The notes under the pieces are model-generated. The model ran no database searches. It had not been told where the DNA came from and saw nothing but the letters and a program-made list of their open reading frames with translations. The position numbers were made by a program, and so were the translations under genes. This document shows, piece by piece, positions 2,514 through 24,407 of a DNA stretch of 24,739 bases (the first letter of the stretch is position 1; the number at the start of each line of letters is the position of its first letter). This stretch comes from a virus, in IMG/VR virus record IMGVR_UViG_3300017697_000090, positions 1-24,739 of that record. One strand, 5' to 3'.

Positions 2514-3863
2514 TTACAGATCGTGGACGTCTTCTCCTGTTTTGTGGGAGCTATCCTCTCTCTCTTGTGGTGTTAGAGCAGTTTCTGGCCCTATTTTCAA
2601 CGTCTCCCAATCTACCTCTGAGGTAAAAGATCGCATAGCAGCTGAACGCATTTTTACACAATTAAAGGTCATACAACCGTCTTCGTGATCCCAGGTTTCT
2701 AGTGTGTATGCAGCATCAGCCGCATCTAGTATACCTTTCGCAAAACGAGCTTCACCGCTAGCATCTGTTTGGTAGGGAGTTATTACAGTACATTCGTACT
2801 CTTGTGCCATAGATTTTAGTGCTTTACTAACTTCTATTTGCTCTGTCCAGTCGTATTGACCTCCGCGAGAAGGTAGGTTAGAACGCTTTACTTGGTTAAT
2901 ATAATCAACAATAACAACTCCAACATTCATTGCCTTTACTTTTTTATCAAGCTCTGCTCGAATCTTAGCAAGGGTGAGAGATGGATCATAAACTACGTTC
3001 AACTGTTGAGTCGGGAGGATCTCGCAAGTTGTCTTTAGTTCATGATGGAACTTCTCAAAGTCTCTATGTTCTTTATATTCTTTCAAACGTTGCTGACCAT
3101 TAACGAAACGATGTGCCCACCAGCTTGCAACTTGTTCCCACTCAGTGACACTAAGATTCTTAGTGCGTAAGCGTGAAAAAGGTACTTTTGTGGCGATAGA
3201 ACAACATCTCTGTAAGATAGACCGACTATCCATTTCTATGGTGAAATAGATAGCCGACTTCCCAGATTCGTAAACACTATTGGCAATGTTACTGCATATT
3301 ACCGACTTGCCCGCTCCGCGCTTACCACCTACCATAACCAGATCTCTAGGAGAAAACTGAATATCTAGGTCGTACTCTTCATTGAGACCAAGTGGTATAT
3401 ACCTTTCTAAATCCTCCTCAGGCTCGAACAGTTCAATACGTTGCATACTTTCCTGTGGTTCCTCCAAGTCAACTTTGTCCTCTATGTCGAGAACAATTTG
3501 ATGAAGGTGATCAACCGACTCCTGGGCATCTTCAAAAGCTACCGAGTTTTCGACATAATCTTCGAGTGAGGTTAGGATCTCTTTCTGAGTATACTCATTC
3601 TTCAAGTACTGAAGAAGCATATATGGCTCAGCATCTGCCTCAACAGAGTCTACGCCGTACAACTTCTCTAAAGTATTTGAATCACGAATCTCAAGTTTAA
3701 GATCCTCAATCGAGGGCATCTTATGAAATTTCTCAGAATGCTTATCAATAATGCTATGCAAACTGTGATATTCGCTAGGCAGATAACGCTTATGTACTTG
3801 TGTCCACGTCTCAAAGTCGCTTAACTCAAGTGTGCGTTTAATTAAGGCACTAGCAATGTTCAA
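2514..3863 (-). CDS. DnaB-like replicative helicase
   Basis: RecA-fold replicative helicase of the DnaB superfamily, 449 aa. The N-terminal ~150 residues form a helical, charged domain. Walker A is GGKRGAGKS (residues 179-187), preceded by SPRDLVMVGG typical of DnaB-type enzymes. Walker B is VVIVDYINQV (about 316-325). Later segments such as ECTVITPYQTDASGEAR match the DnaB H4 region, where a Gln contacts DNA or nucleotide. The start is TTG at 3863 with GGGAG 7 nt upstream; no better ATG is near. It follows the repeat-HTH gene after a 74-nt gap that holds a UUCG hairpin and is followed by the primase promoter. A RecA-like recombinase is less likely because of the N-terminal domain and the primase/polymerase context. 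Confidence 0.88.
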   Translation of the reverse strand: MNIASALIKRTLELSDFETWTQVHKRYLPSEYHSLHSIIDKHSEKFHKMPSIEDLKLEIRDSNTLEKLYGVDSVEADAEPYMLLQYLKNEYTQKEILTSLEDYVENSVAFEDAQESVDHLHQIVLDIEDKVDLEEPQESMQRIELFEPEEDLERYIPLGLNEEYDLDIQFSPRDLVMVGGKRGAGKSVICSNIANSVYESGKSAIYFTIEMDSRSILQRCCSIATKVPFSRLRTKNLSVTEWEQVASWWAHRFVNGQQRLKEYKEHRDFEKFHHELKTTCEILPTQQLNVVYDPSLTLAKIRAELDKKVKAMNVGVVIVDYINQVKRSNLPSRGGQYDWTEQIEVSKALKSMAQEYECTVITPYQTDASGEARFAKGILDAADAAYTLETWDHEDGCMTFNCVKMRSAAMRSFTSEVDWETLKIGPETALTPQEREDSSHKTGEDVHDL

Positions 3864-3937: not shown

Positions 3938-4672
3938 CTATGCAGAAGCTGCGGCTTTCTCTTTCTTAGAAGCACCATCATAGTCAGAAGCAATAAGACC
4001 ACGACGTGTTAACATAGTCTTAACACCACGAGCAGTTTTACCAATCGCTTCAGCGATAGCTTCAACAGTTTGTGTGCTAAGATCGCCTAAACCAGCTAAT
4101 GGATCTTCTTTAGAAGCGCCTTTAGTAATTTCTTGTTTAGGAATGGCATCAATCTCATTAGTGCGTAGGAAGCTTAAAGCTTTACCACGTACAGAGTTAA
4201 TTGAACGGCCCATAGCTTCAGCAATAGCTTCTACAAAAGCGCCATCTTTAACCATTTTGATAAAGATAACTTCTTCTTCAGGAGTATAAGTACGAACAGC
4301 TTCTACTTTAGGAGCAGGCTTAACGTGACTAGTTAGTTCCATAGAAAGGATCTTACCTTGGATTGACTTAGGAGAGAAAGTACCGTCTTCAAAGTGACCG
4401 GCGATTTCCGCGTAAGTGTAAGCACCGCTGTTATCTGTAACAAATGCTGATAAGGTGGCTTCTTGGTTGTCTGTAAAAGACTTGCCCGCTGAGGCTGAAG
4501 CTAATTGTACATCGAAGCCCATCTTGCGTAATTTGCTAGAGATAGAGCGAGTTGATGTTTCTAATTCTGCAGCTGCTTCTGCAACTGTAGCTTGTGAGAT
4601 AGGGCTTTCGCTACCTACGAATTCGGTTAGTTGAGTTGTACGTTCGTCAGTCCATTTAGGTAAAGTTGACAT
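3938..4672 (-). CDS. Repeat Myb/SANT-like HTH DNA-binding protein
   Basis: A 244-aa protein built of about four related helical units. Three begin with an aromatic-T-D/P-E pattern: KWTDERTTQLTEFV (near residue 6), SFTDNQEATLSAFV (near 65) and TYTPEEEVIFIKMV (near 128). Each ends in an S-I/V-x-x-K/M recognition-helix pattern (TRSISSKLRKMGF, PKSIQGKILSMEL, INSVRGKALSFLR); a fourth unit ends TARGVKTMLTRRGL (near 220). This recalls Myb/SANT or MarR-like trihelical units; the exact fold is inferred. Very basic, Ala-rich linkers and C-terminus fit a DNA binder. It lies 6 nt after LigB and before helicase, suggesting a role in replication or transcription. GGAG lies about 11 nt before the ATG. Shorter paralogues occur at 7211-7582, 11882-12052, 19085-19396 and 24063-24407. 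Confidence 0.75.
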   Translation of the reverse strand: MSTLPKWTDERTTQLTEFVGSESPISQATVAEAAAELETSTRSISSKLRKMGFDVQLASASAGKSFTDNQEATLSAFVTDNSGAYTYAEIAGHFEDGTFSPKSIQGKILSMELTSHVKPAPKVEAVRTYTPEEEVIFIKMVKDGAFVEAIAEAMGRSINSVRGKALSFLRTNEIDAIPKQEITKGASKEDPLAGLGDLSTQTVEAIAEAIGKTARGVKTMLTRRGLIASDYDGASKKEKAAASA

Positions 4673-7210: not shown

Positions 7211-7582
7211 CTAGCCTTCTTCGTCTTCTACGGGAGATAAAAGAGTTACGAAGTATTGAGCGGCTTTACCTGTCAACTTAGAGATAATCTCTTCGTCCGG
7301 TACTTTGCCTGCATCTGTTATTGCAGCGGTAAGAGCTTCCTGGGCAGCAGCCTTAGAAACGCGAGTACCTTTGGCAGGTGTGTCACCTGTAGCTGCTGAT
7401 TTAGATACTGAAGTCTTTTTGATATAAACTCCTGCTTTTGTTAAGATCATGCGAACACCGTTAGGTGACTGATCTAGCTCGTCTGCAATACCTTTTACAA
7501 TCTCCATAGAATTCTCTGGAGTAGGCTGCTCGCCTTCGTATAATGCGATTGCTTCTGCTTTAAGTTCGTCTGTCCAAGCCAT
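7211..7582 (-). CDS. Small Myb/SANT-like HTH protein (paralogue family)
   Basis: A 123-aa DNA-binding candidate. The N-terminus MAWTDELKAEAIALY and the later SPNGVRMILTKAGVY match the start and recognition helix of the units in the 3938-4672 protein. A basic Ser/Ala/Lys linker follows, then a helical domain (AAAQEALTAAITDAGKVPDEEIISKLTGKAAQYFVTLL) that also occurs, in diverged form, in 19085-19396 and 24063-24407. The ATG at 7582 was chosen because AAGGA precedes it; an upstream in-frame start would include a leader hairpin. Single-gene unit: promoter at 7693-7721, structured leader of about 105 nt, terminator at 7172-7202, which suggests a highly expressed, separately regulated protein. Confidence 0.8.
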   Translation of the reverse strand: MAWTDELKAEAIALYEGEQPTPENSMEIVKGIADELDQSPNGVRMILTKAGVYIKKTSVSKSAATGDTPAKGTRVSKAAAQEALTAAITDAGKVPDEEIISKLTGKAAQYFVTLLSPVEDEEG

Positions 7583-7686
7583 GTTGGTTTTCCTTTTAGT
7601 AGTTTTTTTGTAACCTGGGCAAGTACCCAAGCTCTGTGTTTGTTGAAAATAAAATCGGTCGCCGATGGTCTTCTCCCAAAGTTTGA
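7583..7686 (-). promoter_or_regulatory. Structured 5' leader of the HTH gene
   Basis: A transcript from the 7693-7721 promoter would have a leader of about 105 nt with two hairpins: ATCGG-CGA-CCGAT at 7654-7666 and CTTGGG/CCCAGG around a 6-nt loop at 7614-7631. Possible post-transcriptional control; no known riboswitch class recognised. Confidence 0.4.
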
Positions 7687-12209: not shown

Positions 12210-12668
12210 ATGATTAAGTATATTAACGAAGACCCTGTCTTTGACCCTTTCATCTCAAAATGTATACAGTCTTTATTTCTTAAAGATACCAATGCCCTTA
12301 TAAACATAGTATGGGTTGAAGAACTTGAGCACAACCAAGCCGGAAACTGTACGGGAGACACCCAGGAAGTTGAGATATGTATCTCAAAAAACTATAGATT
12401 TGAGTGCGGAGATAAGGGAGCTTATTGTCAACAAGAGATTGCTTCTACTCTAGCTCACGAATTAATACATGCTCGACAGTTTATACTGGGAGATATAAAC
12501 AACGAAGACTATTACTACAAAGGGCTTAATTATAAGTCAGTGAAATACGAAGAGACCCCGTGGGAGGTTGAAGCATATTCCCTAGAGTTGGTATTAGTAG
12601 ACTCTTTTTGGCTTCATTCAACAGAAATACAACAAGATAAAGAACTTAAGGATAGTAAAATTGGATAA
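12210..12668 (+). CDS. HExxH metallopeptidase-like protein
   Basis: 152 aa from the ATG at 12210, which has GGAG about 9 nt upstream; a TTG at 12195 overlaps that site and is less likely. The core ASTLAHELIHARQF holds the zinc motif HExxH (H83, E84, H87). About 30 residues on, TPWEVEAY gives a Glu (E119 or E121) suited as third ligand, as in gluzincin-like minimal peptidases. Several Cys in the N-terminal half (C47, C57, C66, C73) could form a second metal site or disulfides. No signal peptide, so it is cytoplasmic. Substrate unknown; a host or phage regulatory protein is possible. It overlaps the glyA start by 8 nt. Confidence 0.7.
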   Translation: MIKYINEDPVFDPFISKCIQSLFLKDTNALINIVWVEELEHNQAGNCTGDTQEVEICISKNYRFECGDKGAYCQQEIASTLAHELIHARQFILGDINNEDYYYKGLNYKSVKYEETPWEVEAYSLELVLVDSFWLHSTEIQQDKELKDSKIG

Positions 12669-13806
12669 CAGAATAGAAGAAATATTGTATAAAGAAAAAA
12701 AGCGTCAACTGCTAACAGTAGAACTAATTGCTAGCGAGAACTTTGCGTCAGATGCGGTAATGGAGTTGAACGGCTCTATCTTTACAAACAAATACGCTGA
12801 AGGATACCCAGAGAACCGTTATTATAACGGATGTAAGCACATGGATGAAATTGAGACTCTAGCAATAGACCAGCTTAAAGAGATCTACGGCTGTGAGTAT
12901 GCGAACGTTCAGCCGCATTCTGGAGCTAATGCTAATACTGCTATATACAATGCATTTCTTAGTCCAGGGGATAAACTTCTAGGCATGGATCTTTCTAGCG
13001 GAGGTCATCTAACTCATGGAGCTAAGGTAGCAATGCCAGGTAAACTATATGACTGTGAAACCTATGGCGTAGATGAGAACGGTTTAATTGATATGGAAGA
13101 AGTATTATCATTAGCCATTAAACATAAGCCTAAGATGATCGTGGCAGGAGCCTCTGCATACCCCCGACAAATTGATTGGAAAGGGTTTAGGCAGATTGCT
13201 AACGAAGTCGGGGCTTATCTACTAGTAGACATGGCTCACTACTCTGGTCTTGTAGCAGGAAATGTATATGACAGCCCAATGAAGTATGCACACTTTGTTA
13301 CATCTACTACACATAAGACATTACGCGGCCCGAGAGGCGGTATCATCATGTGGAATGAGAAGATTTTTACTAAAAAGATTAACAGCTCTATCTTTCCTGG
13401 TACACAAGGTGGGCCTCTCATGAATACTATAGCTGCTAAAGCTCAGTGTTTTATAGAAGCTAACACACCAGAATTTAGTGTATATGCTAAGTCTGTAGTA
13501 GAAAACGCTCAAGAGATGTGTAGAGTATTCGCAGCTCGAGGTATCAAAACACAAACTAACGGTACAGACAGTCACATAGTATTAATAGATCTTAGTGATA
13601 GTGATATGTCCGGTAGGGAAGCAGCGGATCTTTTGGAAGAAAATTCAATTACTGTAAATAAGAACGGTATTCCAAATGATCCACGCTCATTTACAGAGAC
13701 TTCGGGTATCCGTATCGGCACTGCAGCAGAAACCACTAGAGGCTATGACTTAGAAGACTTTAATGAATTAGCGCACACAATATGCGATATTTTACTTGAC
13801 GAGTAG
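12661..13806 (+). CDS. glyA: Serine hydroxymethyltransferase
   Basis: PLP enzyme that moves the serine hydroxymethyl group to tetrahydrofolate, giving glycine and methylene-tetrahydrofolate. 381 aa, somewhat shorter than the roughly 417 aa of E. coli GlyA. Motifs: ELIASENFAS (20-30), NKYAEGYPENRYYNG (43-57), NVQPHSGANAN, LSSGGHLTHG, the PLP-binding LVDMAHYSGLVAG (D190, H193), and the Schiff-base Lys in TSTTHKTLRGPRGG (K219), then FPGTQGGPLM. All catalytic residues are present. Start TTG at 12661 with AAGGA upstream; the TTG is supported by the paralogue at 13862, which has ATG at the same place. It probably recharges folate for ThyX. Codon use looks phage-like, so not a recent host capture. 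Confidence 0.95.
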   Translation: MDNRIEEILYKEKKRQLLTVELIASENFASDAVMELNGSIFTNKYAEGYPENRYYNGCKHMDEIETLAIDQLKEIYGCEYANVQPHSGANANTAIYNAFLSPGDKLLGMDLSSGGHLTHGAKVAMPGKLYDCETYGVDENGLIDMEEVLSLAIKHKPKMIVAGASAYPRQIDWKGFRQIANEVGAYLLVDMAHYSGLVAGNVYDSPMKYAHFVTSTTHKTLRGPRGGIIMWNEKIFTKKINSSIFPGTQGGPLMNTIAAKAQCFIEANTPEFSVYAKSVVENAQEMCRVFAARGIKTQTNGTDSHIVLIDLSDSDMSGREAADLLEENSITVNKNGIPNDPRSFTETSGIRIGTAAETTRGYDLEDFNELAHTICDILLDE

Positions 13807-13861: not shown

Positions 13862-14122
13862 ATGGATAATAGAAGAGAAGAAATATTGTATCAAGAAAAA
13901 AAGCGTCAACTGATGGCAATAGAATTATTAATTTCTAGTGAGAACTTTGTGTCAGACGCAGTAATGGCTTTAAATGCTTCTATCTTTACAAACAAGTATG
14001 CTGAAGGATGTCCTGACACACAAGGTGGGCCTCTCATGAAAGAAAGATACGAAATTTATGTTAGTTGCATGGAAGGTTCTGGTGAATACATTAAAACCTT
14101 CGATGAGTGGATTAACTCATGA
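13862..14122 (+). CDS. Internally deleted SHMT paralogue, 86 aa
   Basis: Residues 1-51 copy the N-terminus of the adjacent SHMT ([16 protein letters not shown], then [20 protein letters not shown]). They are fused at GCP to DTQGGPLM, which corresponds to SHMT positions 247-254. About 196 residues, including the PLP pocket and Lys219, are missing. Over 20 bp around ACACAAGGTGGGCCTCTCATG are identical in both genes, so the copying was fairly recent. The C-terminus ([26 protein letters not shown]) is unrelated to SHMT and resembles a short tail seen in small phage proteins. Promoter, AAGGA site and frame are intact, so it is not a simple decayed pseudogene. It cannot be an active SHMT; a dominant-negative subunit, a domain fusion or a neutral relic are options. 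Confidence 0.8.
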
Positions 14123-19084: not shown

Positions 19085-19396
19085 TCAAGGCAGTACTACT
19101 CTTTCCAACGCTTGGAGTACCGATTTTGGAGCTTTATCGAGACCATCCAAATCCTCAATCTCAATTCGTAGATTGTCAGATATACTAGCAACCAATTCCA
19201 CCTTCGTAATAGGTACGCCTCCACTTTTGTTTTTGTAGACTGCACGTTTATATACTCCTTCTCTTGATAACTTGCCGATTATCGACTTCGTACTCTTTTC
19301 AAGTTCTCTAGCTAATAGCTGCACCGTTTCGGGTGTTGGATCTTTTTCATAGAGACCTACTAGATACTCAGTTTGTTCATCACTATAGTTAACCAT
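19085..19396 (-). CDS. Small Myb/SANT-like HTH protein (paralogue family)
   Basis: 103 aa from the ATG at 19396, which has a near-perfect AGGAGGTGAT ribosome site; the GTG 6 nt upstream is less likely. MVNYSDEQTEYLVGLYEKDPTPETVQLLARELEKSTKSIIGKLSREGVYKR matches the trihelical unit of the family. The C-terminal ITKVELVASISDNLRIEIEDLDGLDKAPKSVLQALERVV aligns in pattern with KNDLVAAISAKVGILPIEGLEKATGMALAELLASL of 24063-24407. The strong ribosome site predicts high expression. Overlaps the upstream small gene by 8 nt. Confidence 0.8.
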   Translation of the reverse strand: MVNYSDEQTEYLVGLYEKDPTPETVQLLARELEKSTKSIIGKLSREGVYKRAVYKNKSGGVPITKVELVASISDNLRIEIEDLDGLDKAPKSVLQALERVVLP

Positions 19397-19538
19397 TATC
19401 ACCTCCTATGAGAGGAGAGGGCTGATCTAAGAAATGATGTCTTGATAAGTCATTTACTACGACTGCAAGTAAAACCATACAGATATACAAGGCTATAATA
19501 GGCATATGTTTGTTCATAGCCTGCATCCATTTTTTCAT
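19389..19538 (-). CDS. Small single-span membrane protein, 49 aa
   Basis: ATG at 19538 overlaps the upstream stop (ATGA), with AGGAG about 8 nt before. Basic start (MKKWMQAMNKHM) then one hydrophobic span (PIIALYICMVLLAVVV) and a polar tail. Its 3' end contains the ribosome site of the next gene. Function unknown. Confidence 0.6.
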   Translation of the reverse strand: MKKWMQAMNKHMPIIALYICMVLLAVVVNDLSRHHFLDQPSPLIGGDNG

Positions 19539-19801
19539 AGAGGTTCTCCTGTGTAGTACTCTCCGGTATAATATTCTTGCATCGTAGAGGATACACGGTT
19601 ACCTGTTTCTTCTACATACTCTCTTACTGCACTGTTAAATCTTTCTTCGAGATCTGCTGCTTCCATCTCTAAAAGATGAACAACTTTGTGTACTTCACTC
19701 AAGCTGTCATAGATGCTTGATAACTTTTCCATTTTTTCATTAAGGGTTTGAAGCATCGCTGTTTCTTGTATTTCTTTGGTTGGGAATTGTACTATTGTCA
19801 T
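19535..19801 (-). CDS. Hypothetical coiled-coil protein, 88 aa
   Basis: MTIVQFPTKEIQETAMLQTLNEKMEKLSSIYDSLSEVHKVVHLLEMEAADLEERFNSAV is a clear heptad-type helix; the end has a direct repeat EYYTGEYYTGE. TAGGAG precedes the ATG and a promoter lies at 19834-19862. First gene of a three-gene operon ending in the HTH paralogue. Confidence 0.7.
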   Translation of the reverse strand: MTIVQFPTKEIQETAMLQTLNEKMEKLSSIYDSLSEVHKVVHLLEMEAADLEERFNSAVREYVEETGNRVSSTMQEYYTGEYYTGEPL

Positions 19802-19833
19802 TCTTATTGCTCCTAGTTAAAGTTTACATATAT

Positions 19834-19862
19834 ATTATACGGGGGTTTAAGGAAATTGTCAA
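19834..19862 (-). promoter_or_regulatory. sigma70-type promoter, leftward
   Basis: TTGACA (19857-19862), 17-bp spacer, TATAAT (19834-19839), immediately downstream of the tRNA-unit terminator. Confidence 0.88.
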
Positions 19863-19885
19863 GAATTTTTTAAGGTGTTACTAGA

Positions 19886-19919
19886 TAAAAAAATACCCCA
19901 ATCACTGACGTGACCGAGG
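19886..19919 (-). terminator. Terminator of the tRNA/structured-RNA transcript
   Basis: CCTCGGTCAC-GTCA-GTGATTGGGG 10-bp stem (with G-U pairs) followed by ATTTTTTTA on the minus strand. Confidence 0.88.
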
Positions 19920-20123
19920 CTAAAGTGGGCGACTACTCCCGAATAGTTGTTATACACTGCCCTTCCTTCCAGTATAGTATAACGGTTTGCCCTTGACCTT
20001 GCGTTTTTATAAAGATAGGAAAACGTAGTCTACGACCACAAACCTTCTCTTGTTGAGTACAAGAGTGCAAACTCCCCAAGTATTTAATTATACACCAGTT
20101 CTTGGGGTCTGGTGTTTTGTTAG
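19886..20123 (-). ncRNA. Structured RNA with H-type pseudoknot, downstream of tRNA-Gly
   Basis: About 240 nt between the tRNA CCA end and a strong terminator, in a transcript from the 20218-20246 promoter. Minus-strand elements in order: an H-type pseudoknot at 20115-20074 (stem 1 ACACCAG/CTGGTGT, stem 2 CCCCAAG/CTTGGGG, loops of 1, 2 and 11 nt, the last all A/U); hairpin CTCTTGT-ACTCA-ACAAGAG; CGTTTT/AAAACG; GTTATAC+ACTG/CAGT+GTATAAC with a 3-nt bulge; ACTATT-CGGG-AGTAGT; then the terminator. No ORF with a ribosome site is present. I know no matching RNA family. An RNA gene released by tRNA processing is the simplest reading. Confidence 0.65.
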
Positions 20124-20197
20124 TGGAGCGAACTGAGAGAATCGAACTCTCATCCAAAGGTTGGAAACCTCTCATAATGCCTTTATACTAAGTTCGC
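20124..20197 (-). tRNA. tRNA-Gly (anticodon UCC)
   Basis: 74 nt including an encoded CCA. Acceptor GCGAACT/AGTTCGC (7 bp) with discriminator U; D arm with GG in the loop and a weak stem; anticodon stem AGAGG/CCTTT with loop TTTCCAA giving anticodon UCC, reading GGA; variable loop GGAT; T arm GAGAG-TTCGATT-CTCTC. U73 and anticodon C35, C36 are glycine identity elements. The only tRNA seen in the window; promoter 21 nt upstream. Confidence 0.93.
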
Positions 20198-20217
20198 TTT
20201 CTTAAACTTGAAGTAAT

Positions 20218-20246
20218 ATTATACGCCCTTTTAACCTCCCCGTCAA
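20218..20246 (-). promoter_or_regulatory. sigma70-type promoter of tRNA-Gly/structured RNA
   Basis: TTGACG (20241-20246), 17-bp spacer, TATAAT (20218-20223); the leader TTCAAGTTTAAGAAA runs straight into the tRNA. It overlaps the stop of the small ORF at 20243-20410. Confidence 0.9.
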
Positions 20247-20410
20247 GAATTATTTTTAAAATACTTGAAATTTATATCTCCTCTACCTTTGCAAACTTCC
20301 ACCTTTTCCTTAAGATTGCGGATAAGATGCTGTGACGTAATCATATTTACTATTGAGCCTAGCAATAGTACTATTAATAATATTTCGATTGCTTCAGTTC
20401 TTTTAGACAC
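20243..20410 (-). CDS. Small membrane protein, 55 aa
   Basis: GTG start at 20410 overlapping the upstream stop, AGGAG about 10 nt before. Basic N-terminus (MSKRTEAIE) followed by one strong span (ILLIVLLLGSIVNMI) and a basic tail (LIRNLKEKVEVCKGRG). Not recognised. Support is the operon overlap and the hydrophobic profile. Confidence 0.5.
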   Translation of the reverse strand: MSKRTEAIEILLIVLLLGSIVNMITSQHLIRNLKEKVEVCKGRGDINFKYFKNNS

Positions 20411-23865: not shown

Positions 23866-24063
23866 TTATAATCCGTAAATTGAGAAACAAAAACCTATAA
23901 TCGAACAAAGGTTTAGGATAATTAAATTGTATTGTTTTAATGATATAGCTTGAACAGTTAAGAGGATTAAACCAGAGACTGCAAGAACACAGCCTCCGAT
24001 CGTCCCCATGTTGAATGATGCTATAATCATTAAAACAGCACCAATCCAACCGAGGACAACCAT
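23866..24063 (-). CDS. Small three-span membrane protein, 65 aa
   Basis: MVVLGWIGAVLMIIASFNM, IGGCVLAVSGLILLTVQAISL and YNLIILNLCSIIGFCFSIYGL are three hydrophobic spans; the W-x-G-A...N pattern resembles small CBU_0592-type membrane proteins. The ATG overlaps the upstream stop (TAATG), so it is coupled to the HTH paralogue. Role unknown. Confidence 0.65.
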   Translation of the reverse strand: MVVLGWIGAVLMIIASFNMGTIGGCVLAVSGLILLTVQAISLKQYNLIILNLCSIIGFCFSIYGL

Positions 24064-24407
24064 TACTTAAGGCTAGCCAATAATTCAGCTAAGGCCATGC
24101 CCGTTGCTTTTTCTAATCCCTCGATTGGCAATATACCCACCTTAGCCGATATAGCCGCGACTAAATCATTTTTGCTAGGCGCTGCCTTTTTCTTAGCAGG
24201 AGCAGGTTTGCTGATATACTCAATATTTTCGCGTTTACATTTAGCGATAATTGAACGAGCACCTCGGCCAAGTTCAACGGATAAAGCTTGCGCTTTGTCA
24301 TAATCTACAGGAGCGGCAGCGCGTAGAATTGCGACCATTGCATCGGTGTAATTTACGGCGGTTTTTGCGACTTTTGTAACTTTTGGAGTAGTCAAGATAT
24401 TTCTCAC
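24063..24407 (-). CDS. Small Myb/SANT-like HTH protein (paralogue family)
   Basis: 114 aa. VNYTDAMVAILRAAAPVDYDKAQALSVELGRGARSIIAKCKRENIEYIS matches the family's trihelical unit. A basic PAPAKKKAAPSK linker leads to KNDLVAAISAKVGILPIEGLEKATGMALAELLASL, shared in pattern with 19085-19396. GTG start at 24407, 6-7 nt after a TATTAT box, with no Shine-Dalgarno, so the mRNA may be leaderless. First gene of the right-hand leftward module. Confidence 0.78.
   Translation of the reverse strand: MRNILTTPKVTKVAKTAVNYTDAMVAILRAAAPVDYDKAQALSVELGRGARSIIAKCKRENIEYISKPAPAKKKAAPSKNDLVAAISAKVGILPIEGLEKATGMALAELLASLK

Follow-up and report, generated by a model that had tools for sequence, protein, structure and literature searches.

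The tRNA cluster of phage T4 gives rise to two small stable RNAs, RNA C and RNA D, whose role is unknown. Larger phage RNAs are also found near tRNAs: GOLLD sometimes has tRNAs inside its linker, and ROOL, which lies near tRNA islands, contains several pseudoknots and has no known protein partner (PMC12286853; PMC7567579). H-type pseudoknot RNAs standing before a terminator are known from type III antitoxins (PMC5086642). Here we describe an H-type pseudoknot (PK1) on the minus strand of a 24.7-kb virus record, the whole of which was analysed and is called the window below. Its DnaB-like helicase is ~30% identical to those of T5-like phages, and two separate genes encode the parts of its NAD-dependent ligase. 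We consider PK1 to be the conserved 5' core of a free-standing phage noncoding RNA (ncRNA) that is transcribed by the host polymerase and most likely acts in trans, a reading to which we give a probability of about 80%.

Conservation of PK1

PK1 reads ACACCAG-A-CCCCAAG-AA-CTGGTGT-ATAATTAAATA-CTTGGGG on the minus strand, and inspection of that strand bore out the first-pass annotation of this DNA in every coordinate and in the length of every stem and loop. In a search of the whole window, it was the sole H-type knot with 7+7 perfect pairs and such proportions. The earlier judgement that the arrangement is unlikely by chance needs a qualification, since dinucleotide-preserving shuffles yield a mean of 0.065 7+7 knots per window (both strands): the window sequence alone is therefore suggestive and uncommon, only mildly surprising and no proof, and it is the comparative evidence that makes the knot certain. 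At 0.065 per shuffled window, inverted complements could arise randomly in AT-rich intergenic DNA of any one sequence, but both stems are kept by compensatory change across 22 contigs, which refutes chance as an explanation and leaves it virtually no probability.

Across 20 sequences, stem 1 has standard pairs in 97.5% of cells (71% in shuffled data) and 27 cells with double changes (9 in shuffles), with double changes at four pairs, and its covariation score of 0.593, compared with 0.137 for shuffled sequences, is lost when the register is slid. Because stem 2 varies in length, it was tested in two ways. In a hand-made register, which was picked so as to pair and thus favours a pairing result, the inner four positions pair in 16 of 16 distinct strand pairs, and at least three of the four Watson-Crick pair types occur at each of them. 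The second test left the register free: strands were permuted among the sequences, and none of 5000 permutations gave a duplex energy as good as that of the native combinations. The sequences are related and non-independent, so these covariation and permutation statistics should not be taken as exact probabilities, although they leave no doubt about the pattern. Homology settles the question, and PK1 is a genuine, conserved H-type pseudoknot. The first-pass annotation had proposed a covariance check on relatives and had named uncompensated stem-breaking changes in homologues as the observation that would count against the knot; in the relatives, compensatory changes preserve the pairing of both stems, and no uncompensated breaks were found.

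The description of the long loop as entirely A/U is true of the window and does not extend to the family, nearly all other members of which carry a conserved UAAAG(C/U)GUAUGG in loop 3. The sequence of this loop thus marks the window as a diverged member. As its conserved loop-3 sequence has been lost, the function of the window copy may have changed or decayed.

Table 1. Positions of the RNA, its parts and its signals in the window
Feature	Position	Strand	Details
Sigma-70 promoter of the tRNA/ncRNA unit	20218..20246	minus	TTGACG-17-TATAAT; 11 of 12 consensus positions
tRNA-Gly (anticodon TCC)	20124..20197	minus	CCA encoded; ARAGORN; Rfam tRNA, 58 bits
PK1, H-type pseudoknot	20074..20115	minus	stems of 7 bp and 7 bp, loops of 1, 2 and 11 nt; sequence, and covariation in ~20 relatives
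PK1 stem 1	20115-20109 / 20098-20092	minus	ACACCAG / CTGGTGT; 7 of 7 perfect
PK1 stem 2	20107-20101 / 20080-20074	minus	CCCCAAG / CTTGGGG; 7 of 7 perfect
PK1 loop 1	20108	minus	A
PK1 loop 2	20100-20099	minus	AA
PK1 loop 3	20081..20091	minus	11 nt; AUAAUUAAAUA in the window, diverged from the relatives' consensus
SL1 hairpin	20047..20065	minus	CUCUUG-UACUCAA-CAAGAG; permutation test 0/5000
P2 (candidate)	20017..20045	minus	AGG (20045-20043) / CCU (20019-20017)
P3 helix	19995..20031	minus	GACU (20031-20028) / GGUC (19998-19995), around an A-rich stretch; permutation test 0/5000
P5 hairpin	19949..19983	minus	GUUAUAC / GUAUAAC, loop exposing GGAAGGAAGGG; arms co-change among members
Intrinsic terminator	19887..19920	minus	11-bp stem and U7
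Promoter of the next gene	19834..19862	minus	TTGACA-17-TATAAT; 12 of 12 consensus positions

The RNA family and its architecture

Relatives were gathered by scans with two phage proteins and with DNA patterns, followed by profile searches and inspection. The RNA is present in 22 distinct virus contigs, the window included (the other 21 are L004, L010, L016, L017, L021, L028, L029, L035, L058, L068, L113, L116, L127, L131, L137, L139, L140, L144, L201, L203 and L209). Wherever a relative has enough flanking sequence, the RNA lies between the same two genes, which resemble T5 D5, in the order promoter, RNA, terminator, promoter. With the window left out, 12 relatives were used to train a covariance model. 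It matches a single place in the window, at 65.2 bits (E=8e-14), finds PK1, SL1 and P3 there in that order, and also recovers members on which it was not trained (L035, L209, L137, L068, L127, L017, L131 and L144).

Searches for the RNA elsewhere were negative. At both gathering and permissive thresholds, Rfam identified the tRNA alone in the window and gave only chance matches in the RNA regions of the relatives. Three versions of the RNA, used as nucleotide queries against the INPHARED phages, returned no match, and there is therefore no cultured relative in that collection. The exact pattern of the window's knot had no match in virus contigs, nor did the neighbouring D5-like protein in bacterial genomes, and the 35 stretches of bacterial genomes that fit the loop-3 pattern were all at chance level against the covariance model (best E=0.064). 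No earlier description of this RNA was found in a search of open-licence papers. These results are best read as a new, previously unnamed family of structured phage ncRNA that occupies one fixed place in T5-related uncultured phages.

The ncRNA spans ~240 nt in the window (roughly 20123-19885, minus strand) and ~240-300 nt in the family, with the shortest whole transcripts predicted at ~260 nt. PK1 is followed by the SL1 hairpin and the P3 helix, both of which covary (Table 1). L017 and L127 appear to have two copies of the SL1 hairpin, with its ACCGAAC loop, directly behind the pseudoknot. The pairing of the P2 candidate is present and nearly invariant, so there is little variation by which to test it (2176/5000 permutations as good); if formed, P2 would interlock with P3, making a second pseudoknot possible. 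The arms of P5 vary together between members while its loop retains a GGN(1-2)GG motif. P5-type hairpins with arms of at least 7 bp occur in 8 of 20 members, compared with 0.1 in shuffles, and hairpins with arms of at least 6 bp and a GGN(1-2)GG loop occur in 10 of 20, compared with 0.5 expected. A putative role of the GG-rich loop as a CsrA site or Shine-Dalgarno mimic was considered and set aside; the GGA trinucleotide is not common to all members. A coding function was rejected: the RNA core has no conserved open frame, and in most members no frame is open across it.

Two other features of the window were noted. A serine hydroxymethyltransferase-like gene (12661-13806, plus strand; named by eye from its translation) is followed by a short ORF that repeats its start, plus a fragment, and this region (13862-14122, plus strand) looks as if it were a decayed partial duplicate of the gene. 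Four similar small proteins of the D5-like DNA-binding type are encoded on the minus strand (19085-19402, recognised by search through weak PHROG matches, and 24063-24407, 7211-7630 and 3938-4672, recognised by eye), as if this family had expanded in the fragment.

The transcription unit and the position 5' of PK1

The boundaries of the unit are marked in the sequence. A promoter stands before tRNA-Gly and a terminator after the RNA behind it, so the two form one transcription unit without a protein gene, and the same promoter arrangement precedes the RNA in relatives. PK1 lies only 8 nt past the encoded CCA of the tRNA, a proximity that fits the proposal that it protects the tRNA from 3' exonucleases or determines where its 3' end is matured. 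As a general function this is contradicted by the relatives, from which tRNA-Gly is usually absent: since most members have PK1 without any tRNA in front, blocking of exonucleases during tRNA maturation, as suggested by the first-pass annotation, is not the conserved function. Moreover, the tRNA-Met of L016 and L116 is located 3' of the RNA body, between it and the terminator, and an encoded CCA requires no such device. A role in tRNA processing is therefore very unlikely, and to view the knot as an element belonging to tRNA-Gly was too narrow, PK1 being the 5' core of a larger RNA.

In the relatives, the position immediately 5' of PK1 is held by a closed helix, P0, that is unrelated to tRNA-Gly; its sequence differs freely, yet its own strands out-pair exchanged ones (0/5000 permutations as good). 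In the window, tRNA-Gly occupies this position. L201 has two tRNAs, both upstream of the promoter. A 5'-flanking tRNA is thus optional for the family and PK1 is no tRNA accessory; one closed RNA domain before the conserved core can be replaced by a tRNA.

The 3' side of the unit bears on another suggestion, that PK1 senses a ligand. Small H-type pseudoknot riboswitches exist (preQ1-I and SAM-II), and a terminator follows PK1, so a ligand or protein could in principle control readthrough of that terminator into the next gene (19801-19535). However, in the window as in the relatives, the consensus promoter of the next gene comes directly after the terminator, and the RNA is not part of that gene's 5' UTR. 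With a terminator and a new promoter separating the two, a cis riboswitch or attenuator is unlikely. The poor conservation of the gene just downstream, the other conserved structure, ~170 nt of it, that separates PK1 from the terminator, and the lack of an Rfam riboswitch match all argue in the same direction.

Some relatives carry other RNAs at this locus. Just before its RNA cassette, L024 encodes a phage permuted (two-piece) tmRNA with the tag GNDDIYDMAA (13245-13621, plus strand; identified with ARAGORN and matching Rfam RF04321 at 107.8 bits). At or near the same place, L024, L185, L094, L194, L154, L163, L173 and L027 have a different unnamed structured RNA; the L024-type RNA follows the pattern GGGAAG(C/U)CAGGGAC-hairpin-GAUAAG(G/A)CAGUAAAGAU-hairpin-AGCCC and has double compensatory changes in 8 of 16 predicted pairs in a six-sequence alignment. 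Another type of noncoding transcript, running from promoter to terminator, is found at the locus in L159 (3005-3428) and L162 (1502-1923), on the plus strand in both, and these transcripts have GACTATAA...GGGCTTTATAA motifs in common. The virus contig L027 also contains a glutamine riboswitch aptamer (2839-2893, minus strand; RF01739, 50.8 bits).

We tentatively raise the possibility, doubtful as it is at present, that the locus is a fixed-place "RNA slot", a strong promoter-terminator cassette that swaps structured RNAs, each of which might act on host translation or on RNA-based defences. If so, its contents would include tRNAs, a permuted tmRNA, the PK1 RNA and one or more further unnamed RNAs that show covariation.

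Proposed mode of action and comparison with known RNAs

Two observations make a free-standing RNA acting in trans the best reading: the unit is shut off by a terminator and a new promoter, and its core is conserved even though the domain 5' of it can be exchanged. We infer that the RNA is transcribed during infection, is processed, and acts in trans on a binding partner. Host RNA polymerase would transcribe it from the consensus sigma-70 promoter along with the closed 5' domain (tRNA-Gly in the window), and the intrinsic terminator would end transcription. Ordinary maturation of the tRNA 3' end would then free tRNA-Gly in the window, leaving an ncRNA that begins just before PK1. The folded RNA would consist of PK1, SL1, P3, the hairpin with the GG-rich loop, and the terminator hairpin. 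This compact molecule most likely acts in trans by binding either a protein, one of the roles suggested for PK1 by the first-pass annotation, or the infected cell's ribosome, with PK1 loop 3 and the GG-rich loop as its likely contact surfaces.

A more specific trans role would be that of a decoy or mimic directed against RNA-based host defence, for example by posing as the antitoxin of a type III toxin-antitoxin ribonuclease (ToxN/CptN/TenpN) or by sequestering another RNA-binding defence protein. The RNA stands alone under a strong promoter, the locus swaps RNA modules between phages, as arms-race genes would, and the type III antitoxins ToxI, CptI and TenpI are likewise H-type pseudoknots, comparable in size and followed by an intrinsic terminator (PMC5086642), though the likeness is general only. 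In contrast to these antitoxins, PK1 is present in a single copy with no tandem repeat at 19800-20300 and is embedded in a longer conserved RNA. A ToxN-family gene would be expected directly downstream in the operon; here no ToxN-like gene adjoins, the downstream gene has its own promoter, and the downstream proteins have no toxin match in Pfam, PADLOC or PHROGs. No similar sequence was found in bacterial genomes. We regard such a decoy as rather unlikely and continue to favour the broader reading, in which the RNA acts in trans on a protein or on the ribosome.

Comparison with tmRNA is invited by the occurrence of that pseudoknotted RNA at the same locus in L024, but neither ARAGORN nor Rfam detects a tmRNA in the window, and the RNA there lacks both a tag reading frame and an alanyl tRNA-like end. 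RNA C and RNA D of T4 are co-transcribed with tRNAs, and the ncRNA can be likened to them by description alone. GOLLD is closer: it too is encoded by phages or prophages, free-standing, strongly structured, often near tRNAs, and made up of conserved and variable regions (PMC12286853). Ribosomes have been reported as a binding partner of GOLLD. With GOLLD and ROOL the ncRNA shares being phage-borne, free-standing and near tRNAs, a resemblance in context only. The Rfam covariance models of GOLLD and ROOL have no match in the window or the relatives. Both of those RNAs are several hundred nucleotides long (GOLLD often exceeds 800 nt), well beyond the ncRNA described here, and ROOL, which is much larger, has no architecture in common with it that we could recognise. 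We file the ncRNA as a new family of a known general kind and as a member of neither. GOLLD and ROOL are abundant, large and unexplained; the new family is small, and its minimal architecture is clear. Its pseudoknot is strongly supported and has a conserved loop, and its neighbouring parts are exchanged naturally. These traits make it easier to ask what free-standing phage RNAs do.
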